Below are positions 7,771 through 13,480 of a DNA stretch of 35,142 nt, piece by piece; within the stretch, counting starts at the first letter, position 1, and each line of letters starts with the position of its first letter. Under the pieces are notes generated by a model. It was not told the DNA's origin. It did not search any database and saw only the letters and a program-made list of their open reading frames with translations. The position numbers and the translations under genes are program-made. The DNA is taken from NCBI GenBank assembly GCA_902542795.1, contig CACBVP010000006.1, forward strand, positions 1 through 35,142, written 5' to 3'. Origin of the DNA: an uncultured Pelagibacteraceae bacterium (GTDB lineage Bacteria > Pseudomonadota > Alphaproteobacteria > Pelagibacterales > Pelagibacteraceae).

Positions 7771-8570
7771 AATATTTATACTCGATTATTCTAGCAATAA
7801 TACTTGCTTACATTTTAGTAATGATTTTTATTTATTTTTATCAAAGAAATCTTCTTTACCATCCAAAAGAAAATAATTATGCAGGAGATACGATTGAATT
7901 TGAATACAAAGAAGTATTTATAGAAGTCGGACAAAATATAAAAATTAAATCTTGGTTTATTGAAAAAAATTTAAAAAAATCAAAAACAATAATTTTTTTT
8001 CATGGTAATGCAGGTGATCTTTCAAACAGAATTCACAAACTTAATAAATTAAATAATTTAAATTCAAACGTCCTGCTTATATCATGGAGAGGATTTAGTA
8101 ATAATCCTGGCAATCCTACAGAAAAAAATCTCTATCAGGATGCAATGAGATCTATTGAGTGGTTAAATAGTAAAGGTATAAATAATAAAGACATCATATT
8201 GTATGGTGAGTCATTGGGTACTGGTGTTGCTACTGAATTAGCACAAAGCAATTCTTTTCATGGCATTATTTTAGAGTCTCCATTTACATCAATAGCAGAT
8301 GCAGCAAAAATTTATTATCCATACTTACCTGTAAATCTTTTGCTTAAAGATAGGTACGATTCAATTAAAAAGATTAAAAACATCAAGATACCAATTTTAA
8401 TAATGCATGGAAAAAAAGATGACATCGTACCCTTTTTTATGGGAGAAAAACTTTATCAAATGGCTAATGAGCCAAAATTTAAATATTTTTCAGAGGATGA
8501 CGATCACATGATGGAGTTCAATGATGATTTACTTAATGCAATTAAAGTTATTCTAAACATCAACTCCTAA
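7767..8570 (+). CDS. Membrane-anchored alpha/beta hydrolase (ABHD13/Bem46-like)
   Basis: This is an alpha/beta-hydrolase fold protein of 267 residues. An N-terminal hydrophobic helix (about residues 5-25) probably anchors it with the catalytic domain on the periplasmic side. The oxyanion-hole motif FFHGNAGD, the nucleophile elbow GESLGTGVA (Ser149), the Asp region HGKKDDIVPF and the C-terminal His in DDDHMMEF are present. The stretch ILESPFTSIADAA and the following YPYLPVNLLLKDRYDS are typical of Bem46/ABHD13-like proteins, whose substrates are mostly unknown. It is the last gene of the TRAP-amidase cassette and its final 18 nt overlap the end of the convergent ftsY. Confidence 0.88.
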   Translation: MKYLYSIILAIILAYILVMIFIYFYQRNLLYHPKENNYAGDTIEFEYKEVFIEVGQNIKIKSWFIEKNLKKSKTIIFFHGNAGDLSNRIHKLNKLNNLNSNVLLISWRGFSNNPGNPTEKNLYQDAMRSIEWLNSKGINNKDIILYGESLGTGVATELAQSNSFHGIILESPFTSIADAAKIYYPYLPVNLLLKDRYDSIKKIKNIKIPILIMHGKKDDIVPFFMGEKLYQMANEPKFKYFSEDDDHMMEFNDDLLNAIKVILNINS

Positions 8571-9473
8571 CAAAGCTTTTGAAAAATATTCTGCATTGAA
8601 AGGATGTAAGTCATCTTCTTTTTCACCCATTCCTATCGCAACAATGGGTAGATTAAATTTTTTACAAACTGCTAAAACAATCCCACCTTTTGCAGAGCTA
8701 TCAAGTTTTGTAATAATTAAGCCAGTGAGATTGTGAATTTTACTAAATTCTTGGACCTGGTTAAGTGCGTTTTGTCCAGTCGTTGCATCGATTACTAAAA
8801 TTACTTCATTAGGATAAGATCGATCGATTTTTTTTAAAACATTAATTATTTTTTTGTATTCCTCCATTAAATTTTTTTTATTTTGAAGTCTTCCAGCAGT
8901 ATCAATTAGCGCTACATCAATTTCATTTTTTTTTGCAAATTCTGCAGTCTTAAAAGCTACAGATGCAGGATCACTATTAATTTCGGATTTTATAATATCT
9001 ACCTTAATTCTGGCTGCCCAAACTTGTAATTGATCTATAGCTGCTGCCCTGAAAGTATCGGCTGCTCCAAAAACAACAGATCGATTATTATTTTTAAAAT
9101 ATTTTCCAAGTTTACCAATACTTGTTGTTTTTCCTACACCGTTAACTCCTGAAACTACAATAACTGCCGATTTAGCATTTCCCATCATGCTTAAGTCTTT
9201 CTCATACTTTTGAAGATCAATTGCTAATTTATCAGCTAAAAGTTTTAAAATTTCTTTATGATTATCTAACTTTTTATCTACTTTAAAAGTTTCAAAATCT
9301 TTTTTAAGTTCCTTGGCAACTTCAATTCCTACATCAGAAGAAATAAGCAATTCCTCAAACTCATCTAAAATTTCAGTATCTATTTTTTTTTTTGAAAAAA
9401 TATTTTTTATTCCATCTGCAAGTCCAGAGGAGCTTTTTCCAAGACCAGTTTTAAATTTATCAAATAACCCCAT
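8553..9473 (-). CDS. ftsY: Signal recognition particle receptor FtsY
   Basis: FtsY is the membrane-docking GTPase for the signal recognition particle in cotranslational protein targeting. The 306-residue protein has the N domain, P-loop GVNGVGKTTSIGKL (around residues 109-122), DTAGR (G3), TKLD (G4) and the closing GMGEKEDDLHPFNAEYF motif. The acidic A domain found before the NG domain in E. coli FtsY is essentially absent; the protein starts MGLFDKFKTGLGKSSSG, a short amphipathic membrane-targeting segment. It is downstream of dapF with a 1-nt gap, so the two are one transcript. Its partner gene ffh lies just beyond dapF in the opposite direction. Confidence 0.96.
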   Translation of the reverse strand: MGLFDKFKTGLGKSSSGLADGIKNIFSKKKIDTEILDEFEELLISSDVGIEVAKELKKDFETFKVDKKLDNHKEILKLLADKLAIDLQKYEKDLSMMGNAKSAVIVVSGVNGVGKTTSIGKLGKYFKNNNRSVVFGAADTFRAAAIDQLQVWAARIKVDIIKSEINSDPASVAFKTAEFAKKNEIDVALIDTAGRLQNKKNLMEEYKKIINVLKKIDRSYPNEVILVIDATTGQNALNQVQEFSKIHNLTGLIITKLDSSAKGGIVLAVCKKFNLPIVAIGMGEKEDDLHPFNAEYFSKALLGVDV

Positions 9474-9474
9474 A

Positions 9475-10293
9475 CTAAATTTCTAATTCTAAATTTTTGA
9501 TTTCAGAAACAGGGCCGGTCATAAAGATATTATCCTCAGCGTCAATCTCTATTTTTAAAATACCTTCTTTGAATTGAATATCAACTTTGTTGCCAACAAA
9601 TTCATTTTTGTATGCTGCCACAGCTGTAGCACAAGCGGCAGTGCCACAAGCTTTTGTAAGGCCCGCGCCTCTTTCCCAAACATTTACTTTAATCAAATCA
9701 TTATCTGCTATCTCAGCAAAAGTAACATTTGTTCGTTCGGGGAAAAGATTATGATTTTCAATCTTTGGACCCAAAGTTTTTAAATCAACATTCATACAAT
9801 CTTTTACAAAAAAAATTATATGTGGGTTACCAACATTAACACAAAAACCATCTTTAAAAGACTTACCATCAATATCAATAGAAATTTTTTTATGATCTAA
9901 ATTTTTACTTAATGGAATTTTTTCCCAATTAAATAATGGTTTGCCCATGTTTAACTTAACAGAGTGTTCACCAACAATTTCAGCATTTAGGGTTCTATTA
10001 TTTGTTTTAATTTTTATAGATTTTGAATTATTTTTTTCTCCTAATAGATAAGCGATACATCTACTTCCATTTCCACAAGCTTCTACTTCGCCCCCATCAG
10101 AATTAAAAATTTTTATTGGAAATGAATTTTCAATTTCTTTTTCAATATAAATTATTTGGTCAAATCCGATATTCGACCTTTTTCCTAATTCTATAATTTT
10201 ATCTTTTGATAGCTCGACATGATTTTTTCTTCTATCGATTATGATAAAATCATTACCTAACCCATCCATTTTATACGCGTTAATCATCGCCAT
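9475..10293 (-). CDS. dapF: Diaminopimelate epimerase
   Basis: DapF converts LL- to meso-diaminopimelate for lysine and peptidoglycan synthesis in the cytoplasm. Both catalytic cysteines are visible: Cys73 in EACGNGSRC and Cys216 in KACGTAACA. The substrate-binding region KMDGLGNDF is at the N terminus. Length (272 residues) is normal. The start is uncertain by two codons: ATG at 10293 or the third codon at 10287 (MINAYKMDG), neither with a clear ribosome binding site. In many alphaproteobacteria a MiaB-like gene lies between dapF and ftsY; here only one base separates them. Upstream lies the divergent ffh. Confidence 0.96.
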   Translation of the reverse strand: MAMINAYKMDGLGNDFIIIDRRKNHVELSKDKIIELGKRSNIGFDQIIYIEKEIENSFPIKIFNSDGGEVEACGNGSRCIAYLLGEKNNSKSIKIKTNNRTLNAEIVGEHSVKLNMGKPLFNWEKIPLSKNLDHKKISIDIDGKSFKDGFCVNVGNPHIIFFVKDCMNVDLKTLGPKIENHNLFPERTNVTFAEIADNDLIKVNVWERGAGLTKACGTAACATAVAAYKNEFVGNKVDIQFKEGILKIEIDAEDNIFMTGPVSEIKNLELEI

Positions 10294-10303
10294 ATTTGAT
10301 TAG

Positions 10304-10309
10304 TATAAT
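10304..10309 (+). promoter_or_regulatory. TATAAT box in the dapF-ffh divergent region
   Basis: A perfect TATAAT lies here on the plus strand, pointing toward ffh; no good -35 is seen 17 nt upstream (TAATCA). The same bases read ATTATACT on the minus strand, giving a TATACT 11 bases upstream of dapF. One AT box could therefore serve both directions. If used for ffh, the transcript would begin near 10316 and carry a leader of about 140 nt containing the structured island. Confidence 0.4.
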
Positions 10310-10339
10310 TATTCATTGACTTTTAAAACCCCAAATTGT

Positions 10340-10436
10340 ACTTTCCGGACACTTTCCGCAAATACACAAGTCTTTGCGGTGCTCTTGTAAACAAGAGTGT
10401 CGACACTAGTCAGCGAAGGTTCGCCCACTAGTGCGA
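10340..10436 (+). ncRNA. Candidate structured RNA or ffh leader (GC-rich, several hairpins)
   Basis: The bases 10341-10440 contain 50 G or C in 100, against roughly 30% around them. Three hairpins follow in order. H1 pairs CCGCAAA (10356-10362) with TTTGCGG (10373-10379). H2 pairs CTCTTG (10382-10387) with CAAGAG (10392-10397) over loop TAAA. H3 is a long arm, TCG-a-CACTAGT-ca-GCGA, loop AGGT, TCGC-cc-ACTAGTG-CGA (10400-10436). GACA (10348-10351) can pair with TGTC (10398-10401) to enclose H1 and H2, competing with the base of H3. No T run follows H3, so it is not a terminator. The SRP RNA core motif (GGAA-capped helix with flanking conserved loops) is not found, so it is not an obvious ffs. 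It ends 21 nt before the ffh ATG. Whether it is a leader or a separate RNA cannot be told from sequence alone. Confidence 0.6.
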
Positions 10437-10457
10437 TAGGTGTTGGGTGTTACAAAA

Positions 10458-11810
10458 ATGTTTGAAAATTTAACTAATAAATTAGAAAGTATTTTTTCTA
10501 AATTAAAAAGTGCTCCTTCTCTTACAGAAGAGCAAGTTGACTCGGGTTTAAAAGAAATACGTTTAGCTCTTTTAGAAGCCGATGTGGCATTATCAGTTGT
10601 TAAAGAATTTATTTCTAATGTAAAACCAAAAGCTATTGGTCAGGAAATTATTAAGTCAACTTCTCCAGGCCAAATGATAGTAAAGATAGTTTATGATGAA
10701 CTTGTAACTATTTTAGGATCTAAAAACGAAGAAATAAATCTAAAAGCTGTTCCACCTATTTCAATACTTTTAGTTGGGCTGCAAGGTTCTGGTAAAACAA
10801 CTTCAGCAGCAAAACTAGCTTCACTTATTCAAAATAAACACAAAAAAAAAGTAATGGTAGCAAGTCTAGACGTATATAGGCCAGCTGCTCAAGAGCAACT
10901 AAAATTATTAGCTGAGAAGAATGACATACAATGTTTACCAATTGTAGATAATCAACAACCTCTAGATATAAGTAAAAGAGCACTCAACGCAGCTAATTTA
11001 AATGGTTCAGATGTAATAATTTTTGATACAGCCGGAAGGACGCAAATTGACCTTCCAATGATGTCTGAGATTAAAAAAATTAAAGAGATTACAAATCCTG
11101 TTGAAACAATTTTAGTAGCAGACTCTTTAACAGGTCAAATAGCTGTTAACATAGCTAAAGAATTCGATACAGTAGTAAATCTTTCATCAATTATTTTAAC
11201 TAGAGTTGATGGAGATGCTCGTGGTGGAGCCGCTTTAAGCATGAAGCAGGTTACTGGAAAACCAATCAAATACATTGGAGTTGGGGAAAAAGTCTCAGAC
11301 TTTGAAATGTTTCATCCAGATAGATTGGCAAATAGAATTCTTGGAATGGGTGATGTTGTAACCTTAGTCGAAAAAGCAGCACAGAATTTAGGTGAAGAAA
11401 AAATCAAAGAAACTGAAGAGGAATTAAAAAAAGGAATATTTACAATGGATACTTATTTGTCCCAGTTAAGACAAATGAAAAAAATGGGAGGCATGGAAGG
11501 CGTCATGTCGATGCTGCCAGGCGTAAATAAAATGAAAGCTAAAATAGATCAAGCAAATATTGATGAGAAAATGTTAATTGAAAACGAAGCTATAATTTTG
11601 TCAATGACTAAAAAAGAAAAAGAGAATCCAAAAATTATCAGCGGCTCTAGAAGAAAAAGAATTTCAAAAGGTGCCGGAGTAGATGTCTCAAAAATAAATA
11701 AACTTTTAAAACAATTTAAAATGATGTCAGATATGATGAAAAAGATGTCACAAGGAAAAAAAATTCCATCTGGAATGATACCAGATGAAATGCTCAATCA
11801 ACTAAAATGA
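10458..11810 (+). CDS. ffh: Signal recognition particle protein Ffh (SRP54)
   Basis: Ffh binds signal sequences on ribosomes and, with SRP RNA, docks to FtsY. The NG GTPase domain shows [14 protein letters not shown] (G1), DTAGRTQ (G3), [10 protein letters not shown] (G4) and [18 protein letters not shown]. The methionine-rich M domain includes [19 protein letters not shown] and the SRP-RNA-binding [20 protein letters not shown]. The ORF track begins at a GTG (10440), but homologues start near MFENLTNKL, so I chose the ATG at 10458, giving 450 residues. The six extra codons would lie in the leader right after hairpin H3. rpsP follows after 10 nt, so ffh may head the rpsP-trmD-rplS transcript. 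Confidence 0.96.
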
Positions 11811-11820
11811 AAGGTATAAA

Positions 11821-12270
11821 ATGTTAAAAATAAGACTATCAATGGGAGGGGTTAGAAAAAGACCAGTTTATAAAATAGTTATAGCTGATAGCAGATACCC
11901 ACGAGATGGTAAATTTATCGAAAAAATTGGTTCTTACAATCCATTGCTTCCAAAGGATAAAAAAGAAAGAATAAAAGTAGAAGCAGAAAGAGTTAAGTAT
12001 TGGATGAGTAAAGGAGCTCAACCAACTCTTAGAGTTTCTAGAATTTTAGGAGAGGCACAGATCATGCCAATGCCTAAACCAGGTAACAATCCTAATAAAG
12101 CAATTCCTAAAAAAGAGAGAAAAAAAGCAGGCGAAGAAAGTAAAGAAGAGCCTAAAGCAGAAGCTAAAAAGGAAGAACCTAAAGCAGAAGCTAAAAAGGA
12201 AGAACCTAAAGCAGAAGCTAAAAAGGAAGAGCCTAAAGCAGAAGCTAAAAAGGAAGAGCCTAAAGCTTAA
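11821..12270 (+). CDS. rpsP: 30S ribosomal protein S16 with repeat-bearing C-terminal tail
   Basis: S16 helps fold the 5' domain of 16S rRNA. The conserved core runs from [41 protein letters not shown]-type sequence at the start to about residue 82. Total length is 149 residues, against roughly 80-90 for a minimal S16. The extra C terminus is Lys/Glu/Pro/Ala-rich and ends in about 4.5 copies of the nonapeptide EEPKAEAKK. It follows ffh by 10 nt and precedes trmD by 14 nt. rimM, usually between rpsP and trmD in proteobacteria, is not there. Confidence 0.96.
12145..12267 (+). repeat. 27-bp coding tandem repeat in rpsP (4 full units plus 15 nt)
   Basis: The unit is GAAGAGCCTAAAGCAGAAGC followed by TAAAAAG. 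Units lie at 12145-12171, 12172-12198, 12199-12225 and 12226-12252, with a partial unit at 12253-12267 just before the stop. Units differ only at the sixth base (GAG or GAA). Such near-identity points to recent slippage or unequal exchange, and in-frame copy-number change would vary the S16 tail by nine residues per unit. Confidence 0.97.
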
Positions 12271-12284
12271 ACCAAGGTTTAAAA

Positions 12285-12974
12285 ATGCTACAAGTAAAAT
12301 TATTTACCTTGTATCCAGATTTATTTCCAGGATTGCTTGATGTTGGAATATACAAAAAAGCAAGAGAAAATAAAAAATGGAGTCTTGAAGTAATAAATAT
12401 AAGAGATTACGCTTTTGATAGTAAACGTACAGTTGATGATACTCCATTTGGCGGTGGTAGCGGGATGCTTTTGAAGCCAGATGTGGTTGCTGCTGCAATA
12501 GATAAAAATGTTACTTCAAAAGATAAGATTATTTATCTTTCACCTAAAGGTAAAAAACTTGATCAACATACAATTAAATCTTTTAGTAAGTTAAAAATTA
12601 TAAATATTTTGTGTGGCCATTTCGAAGGTGTAGATCAGAGACTTTTGGAGACTAGGAATATTGAGGAATATAGCATTGGTGATTTTATTTTATCAGGTGG
12701 TGAGAGCGCTTCTTTTGTTTTAATTGATGCTTTAATTAGACTTTTGCCGGGTGTTCTTGGTAATGAGAATTCAACTTTAGAGGAAAGTTTTGAAAATAAT
12801 CTTTTAGAATATCCTCAATACACTAAACCTAGAGAATGGGAGGGAAAAAAAGTCCCAGAAGTGTTATTTTCAGGCGATCATGCCAAAATAAAGGGGTGGC
12901 GTTTATCCCAATCTGAGGCTATAACACGTCGCCAGAGACCTGATCTTTGGAAAAAATACACAGAAAAAAAATGA
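12285..12974 (+). CDS. trmD: tRNA (guanine-37-N1)-methyltransferase
   Basis: TrmD methylates G37 next to the anticodon using SAM, which prevents +1 frameshifting. The SPOUT trefoil-knot elements are visible: [10 protein letters not shown], the SAM-binding [14 protein letters not shown] and [12 protein letters not shown]. The N-terminal [13 protein letters not shown] loop and the C-terminal RPDLWKKY fit the family. The 229 residues are normal. The stop overlaps the rplS start as ATGA (12971-12974), indicating translational coupling. Confidence 0.97.
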
Positions 12975-13480
12975 AAAATATTGAAGACATAAATAAAGCG
13001 GCGATACAAAAATTAACTGCCAACAAAAAAATCACTGAATTTTCACCTGGAGATACAATAAAAGTAGGTGTTAAAATCGTTGAAGGAAAAAGAGAAAGAA
13101 TTCAGTATTTCGAAGGCGTATGTATTGCAAAAAAAAATAGGGATATAAATTCTTCTTTCACAGTTAGAAAAATATCATTTGGTGAAGGAGTTGAAAGAAC
13201 TTTTGCGCTGTATAGTCCAAATGTTGCGTCAATTAAAGTTATAAGATCAGGAAAAGTAAGAAGAGCAAAACTTTATTACCTAAGAGACAGAAAAGGAAAA
13301 TCTGCAAGAATTGCTGAAAAAATTAAAAAGAAAATAGGTGTTGATGTTTCAGTAAAACCAGAAGAACCTAAAGCAAATCCGATAGCATCACAAACTGAAG
13401 AAGTTAAAGCTGTGGAGGAAAAAAAAGAGACTCCAAAAGTTGAAACAAAATCTGAAAAACCAGCTAGCGAAAAAAAATAA
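12971..13480 (+). CDS. rplS: 50S ribosomal protein L19 with extended charged tail
   Basis: L19 sits at the subunit interface of the ribosome. Homologues begin near [15 protein letters not shown], so I place the start at ATG 12971, overlapping the trmD stop as ATGA, instead of the track start 24 nt earlier. The core carries [39 protein letters not shown] and [16 protein letters not shown]. The protein is 169 residues, against about 115-130 for typical L19. The extra C-terminal part (from about residue 122) is rich in Lys, Glu, Pro and Ala and includes EEPKA, the same motif as in the S16 tail, but it is not a regular repeat. Confidence 0.96.

Follow-up and report, generated by a model that had tools for sequence, protein, structure and literature searches.

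Comparison among related genomes showed that the non-coding island located between dapF and ffh in an uncultured Pelagibacteraceae bacterium is an RNA of three hairpins (H1, H2, and H3), which keeps a fixed place and is associated with rpsP, the gene encoding ribosomal protein S16. The island very probably acts in cis, as a leader. The core of this finding was already known, since a motif at the dapF-ffh gap had been described in 2009 by Meyer et al. (PMC2704228) and is represented in Rfam as RF01793. What the alignments add is that the RNA consists of three hairpins, with H1 and H2 lying outside the structured hairpin of the Rfam entry, and that these two hairpins covary.

Locus, fold, and family of the island

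The island (positions 10340-10436 of the window, that is, of the whole 35,142-nt stretch of DNA analysed) has a G+C content of 49.5%, vs 31.9% in the window and 21.7% in positions 10294-10339, and a G+C content this high is reached by only 0.4% of the 97-nt stretches in the window. It sits between the divergent genes dapF (10293-9475, minus strand) and ffh, whose in-frame ATG is at 10458. The first-pass annotation had described a GC-rich non-coding island at this place, ending 21 nt before the start of ffh, and both statements proved correct; the short ORFs of 31 and 39 aa crossing the island are mechanical. With regard to the surrounding genes, the pair ftsY-dapF (8553-10293) is divergent from ffh (10458-11810), so that the genes for the SRP receptor and the SRP protein flank one intergenic region. 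Downstream of ffh (11810-13480), rpsP is followed by trmD without rimM between them, a gene that most other Alphaproteobacteria have there. The coordinates of all features are collected in Table 1.

Table 1. Features of the leader, its promoter, and the downstream genes (positions in the window)
Feature	Position	Strand	Details
Probable promoter	10316-10344	+	-35 TTGACT (10316-10321), -10 around TTGTACTTT
Variable 5' leader segment	10346-10355	+	From sequence-only alignment A1; UU(U) directly before H1 kept
Hairpin H1, 7 bp	10356-10379	+	10356-62 with 10373-79
Competing helix P2ext	10377-10402	+	10377-10380 (CGGU) with 10399-10402 (GUCG here, usually AUCG)
Hairpin H2, 6 bp plus G-U closing pair	10381-10398	+	10382-87 with 10392-97
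Hairpin H3, structured part of RF01793	10404-10433	+	10404-10 with 10427-33; 10413-16 with 10421-24
Conserved tail 3' of H3	10434-10449	+	Class consensus about UUU-G-Y-GUUUGG, runs to ffh start
ffh, SRP protein	10458-11810	+	TIGR00959, 562 bits
rpsP, ribosomal protein S16	11821-12270	+	TIGR00002; 10 nt 3' of ffh
trmD	12285-12974	+	Pattern and phmmer matches
rplS	ORF 12947-13480	+	Pattern and phmmer matches; start codon uncertain

The promoter was recognised from a TTGAC sequence plus a TANNNT-type box lying at the same spot in the leaders of relatives, and it was not among the promoters listed by a generic scan of the window. According to this prediction, transcription would probably start a few bases 5' of H1. 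The island is very unlikely to be a small RNA in its own right, released by processing or termination ahead of ffh. A transcript was reported in small-RNA metatranscriptomes (PMC2704228), and the type given to RF01793 in Rfam is sRNA; however, the window scan found no terminator between the island and ffh, which counts against a separately terminated small RNA, and the element is always at the operon start.

The minimum-energy fold reached -44.6 kcal/mol, vs -27.6 ± 3.5 kcal/mol in shuffled sequences (z -4.82; none of 200 shuffles was as good), and it contained H1, H2, and H3 just as the first-pass annotation had drawn them. Within H3, a C·C mismatch (10411/10426) lies beside an A·C position (10412/10425). 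The tail between H3 and the start codon is conserved and unpaired class-wide.

A search with cmscan matched positions 10389-10441 to RF01793 ('ffh') with 42.4 bits (cut-off 35; E 6.6e-07), so the earlier statement that the island could not be matched to a known family has to be withdrawn. Along with a score above the curated cut-off, the island has the covarying bulged stem of this family (H3), its two conserved cytosines in the bulge, and its location before ffh, and it was noticed by the same GC-island reasoning. The motif was found through GC-rich intergenic regions in Pelagibacter, with the dapF-ffh gap among those listed, and was described as a single hairpin with a bulge, placed before ffh, with a wide distribution in Rhodobacterales, Sphingomonadales, and Rhizobiales but absent from Rhodospirillales and Caulobacterales; a role in ffh regulation was proposed as possible (PMC2704228). 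Whereas RF01793 as described is a single hairpin associated with ffh, the RNA studied here has three hairpins and a wider range, and is also found before rpsP where ffh is missing.

Of the 197 Pelagibacterales genomes searched, 175 contained a match to RF01793, and 20 genomes of the order without such a match were also negative with our model R1. At the class level, a model of the three hairpins (R2) detected the leader in 109 of 241 genomes, vs 65 for RF01793 with the same draw size and settings. Inspection of 40 loci matched by R2 only revealed an Ffh GTPase motif downstream in 38 of them and an Ffh-like start in one more (39/40), which constitutes independent support, since R2 holds no coding information. 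Weak leader matches (E 0.05-0.5) were also seen at the start of ffh, or a short distance 5' of it, in Gluconobacter and Neokomagataea (L279, L281, L282, and L317), and these are probably divergent members.

The location next to ffh had also raised the idea of a divergent SRP RNA, to which we now assign practically no probability. The genome carries its own canonical 4.5S RNA on another contig (G000:C5:36964-37058), and for this reason the island is not the SRP RNA. Moreover, cmscan gave no match to RF00169 (bacterial SRP RNA) in the island, where domain IV with its symmetric UCAGG/AGCAG loop and GGAA-type tetraloop was not recognised, and the Ffh site's AGCAG strand is absent from H3. The fold is different, and the only likeness lies in the functional neighbourhood and the short word UCAG.

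Conservation, covariation, and a competing helix

The promoter, H1, H2, H3, and the tail were all conserved in 94 oriented leaders. In a sequence-only MAFFT alignment of 63 leaders from Pelagibacterales (A1), the three helices paired in 93.9% of the cells, vs 34-45% when they were slid. Covariation was evaluated with a home-made, R-scape-like test (not R-scape itself) in which the observed substitutions are redistributed on the tree as a phylogenetic null; the class-wide alignments, like the larger ones in general, had been fitted to the structure, whereas A1 had not. In A1, covariation was observed for one pair of H3 (10407-10430, E=0) and two of H2 (10382-10397 and 10384-10395, E=0.02 and 0.04, respectively). 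In one class-wide test, every pair up to E=0.1 belonged to H1, H2, or H3, and in a structure-fitted alignment of 95 diverse sequences the best 18 of 5778 column pairs were all pairs of these hairpins or the pair 10412-10425. Class-wide, H1 was paired in 90.9% of the cells and showed both-side changes at all 7 pairs, with 6 pairs at E=0 under the phylogenetic null. In H2, 6 pairs had double changes in Pelagibacterales, and its covariation was also significant class-wide. These are the conservation and compensatory changes that the first-pass annotation had proposed to look for in relatives, and they were found for H1, H2, and H3.

Regarding the interior of H3, the C·C mismatch was kept in 92 of 95 sequences, and position 10412-10425 varied among A-C, C-G, G-U, and U-A across Alphaproteobacteria (E=0). 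The A·C opposition at 10412/10425 thus acts as a pair position adjoining the invariant C·C mismatch. These features bear on whether the leader could be an unregulated structured 5' UTR, merely stabilising the mRNA or setting its translation rate. Such a UTR would agree with a promoter-proximal element that adjoins the start codon with no terminator, but the class-wide invariant C·C, the conserved loop-side sequence, and the tail exceed the needs of a mere stem, and we consider this explanation unlikely.

The first-pass annotation had suggested a switch between two exclusive folds based on a GACA/TGTC pairing. That pairing is unsupported, since its 5' segment (10347-10353) is not conserved in relatives. 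The idea of a switch persists in another form, through the different and partly conserved helix P2ext, which lengthens H2 and cannot form together with the base of H1. P2ext was paired in 99.6% of the cells in Pelagibacterales, in 94.4% class-wide among the genomes positive for RF01793 (where all 4 pairs showed double changes and the alignment had not been fitted to P2ext), and in 88.5% in the family f41 described below; in genomes matched by R2 only, the value was only 64% and covariation was not significant. Constraint folding placed the H1 and P2ext states within 1.6 kcal/mol of each other on average, with a wide spread. The modelled opening of the ffh start region was 0.57 vs 0.47, being lower in the P2ext state in 50 of 63 cases. 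We regard H1/P2ext as a candidate switch, to which the comparisons and models give partial support.

Other structural elements were tried and rejected. A base triple 10358-10377-10402 included the top non-helix pair in A1, but with E=0.75, and was read instead as part of P2ext. A long-range stem, P1 (10348-54 with 10438-44), was strong in the window fold but paired in only 56% of the relatives' cells, and an extension of H3 (10399-402 with 10434-37) was paired in 74.7% of cells and in 42% in the R2-only genomes. Finally, the pairs of a pseudoknot between the H1 loop and the tail barely beat permuted ones (0.014 of permutations were as good, with relatedness not controlled).

Association of the leader with rpsP

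The usual gene order 3' of the leader was ffh-rpsP-(rimM)-trmD-rplS, with ffh as the first gene in most genomes. The rpsP gene was found downstream, on the same strand, in all 42 leader loci scanned by phmmer, and it was the only gene common to every leader locus examined.

In the family f41, the leader was kept in 14 of 18 genomes, with the S16 gene directly next in the loci read, and the gene order (dapF / leader / rpsP-rimM-trmD-rplS) is that of the window minus ffh. No Ffh or FtsY above the cut-off was detected in 15 f41 genomes, of which six have a completeness of 93% or more, and one sub-threshold match of 20 bits was seen; this protein-profile search was positive in 14 of 14 control genomes, and its result was consistent across the 15 f41 genomes. 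The 4.5S RNA was not found in the same 15 genomes, which are draft assemblies. Absences given by the genome search call for care, since it missed the 16S of two near-complete genomes in which this gene must be present. These small genomes (L221, L274, L276; G235, G340, G420, G435, G441, G449, and others) have apparently lost the whole SRP pathway, that is, Ffh, FtsY, and 4.5S RNA, while the leader survives before rpsP. In f41, H3 was paired in 100% of the cells, with double changes at 5 pairs (in a comparison set that includes the window), and H1 was weaker, with 73% paired. The family appears to be the PS1 clade itself or a relative of it, a link that rests on TrmD similarity (67% and 56%), and the PS1-named single-cell genomes AG-349-L06 and AG-343-O05 have the same arrangement.

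In the family f13, the leader was followed by only ffh and rpsP, with trmD-rplS not downstream. Furthermore, no leader was found in the 7-13 kb around trmD at trmD-rplS loci that lack a neighbouring rpsP (Hyphomicrobium, Filomicrobium, Lentibacter, Mesenet, and others). Since the leader persists before rpsP in f41, stays in f13, and was not found near detached trmD-rplS, it seems tied to rpsP rather than to ffh. We think it probable that the target of the leader is the ribosomal-protein genes of the operon and not the SRP. Autoregulation, in which the leader would bind Ffh or sense free 4.5S RNA and so tune the level of the SRP protein, would be consistent with the position of the leader immediately 5' of ffh in almost every genome, with the word UCAG shared by H3 and the Ffh site of 4.5S RNA, and with the regulation of ffh that Meyer et al. 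thought possible (PMC2704228). This explanation seems unlikely to us, given that f41 keeps the leader, and H3 by compensatory changes, without detectable Ffh, FtsY, or 4.5S RNA, and that Meyer et al. saw no likeness to the Ffh site (PMC2704228).

A putative S16-responsive leader

From the original interpretation of the island, a conserved, covarying RNA and a cis leader before ffh are retained, whereas an unmatched family and a divergent SRP RNA are not. Our best reading, taken as a whole, is that positions 10346-10457 are the 5' leader of the ffh-rpsP-trmD-rplS mRNA and are bound by S16, a reading whose chances we judge to be about even. On the genomic associations described above, the identity of S16 as the ligand is plausible, with chances just short of even. 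The leader would fold as H1, H2, and H3 and act in cis on the operon, and excess S16 would bind it, most likely through H3 with its invariant C·C mismatch and aided by H1/H2. Binding would then lower operon expression, as in other ribosomal-protein leaders. One possible route would be a shift from H1 to the extension of H2 (10377-10380 with 10399-10402), which is modelled to close the ffh start region somewhat.

Like ribosomal-protein autoregulatory leaders, the island is a conserved RNA with a defined fold, located in the 5' UTR of an operon that encodes two ribosomal proteins. It differs from them in that the binding of S16 is here inferred and in that a scan for rRNA mimicry gave nothing convincing, no credible H3-like site being found in two SAR11 16S and three 23S sequences. 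That scan gave one pattern match to h16, which we take to differ from the true 16S structure there.

It is rather unlikely that the leader answers a ribosomal ligand other than S16 (L19, a segment of rRNA, or the ribosome itself) or a small molecule. The ribosomal proteins encoded in the operon, the conserved and unpaired tail, and the presence of competing helices would all be compatible with such a ligand; on the other hand, the genes for L19 and TrmD are not downstream in f13, detached trmD-rplS loci have no leader near them, and the Rfam search matched no riboswitch family. Returning to S16, we tentatively propose that the class-wide three-hairpin RNA might be an S16-responsive switch of rpsP(-rimM)-trmD-rplS in Alphaproteobacteria, with ffh being co-controlled where it heads the operon.

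According to a 2024 review, the regulation of the trmD operon (rpsP-rimM-trmD-rplS) is without any information, and regulation that is unknown in this sense is rare among ribosomal-protein operons (PMC10931766). Comparative evidence now points to one protein (S16) and one RNA, in a class that includes many laboratory species. The RF01793 entry covers part of this RNA and is named for a gene apparently lost from one family that retains the RNA. If true, an S16 switch would supply a missing piece of ribosomal-protein regulation, and it would be one that outlives the loss of the SRP pathway.
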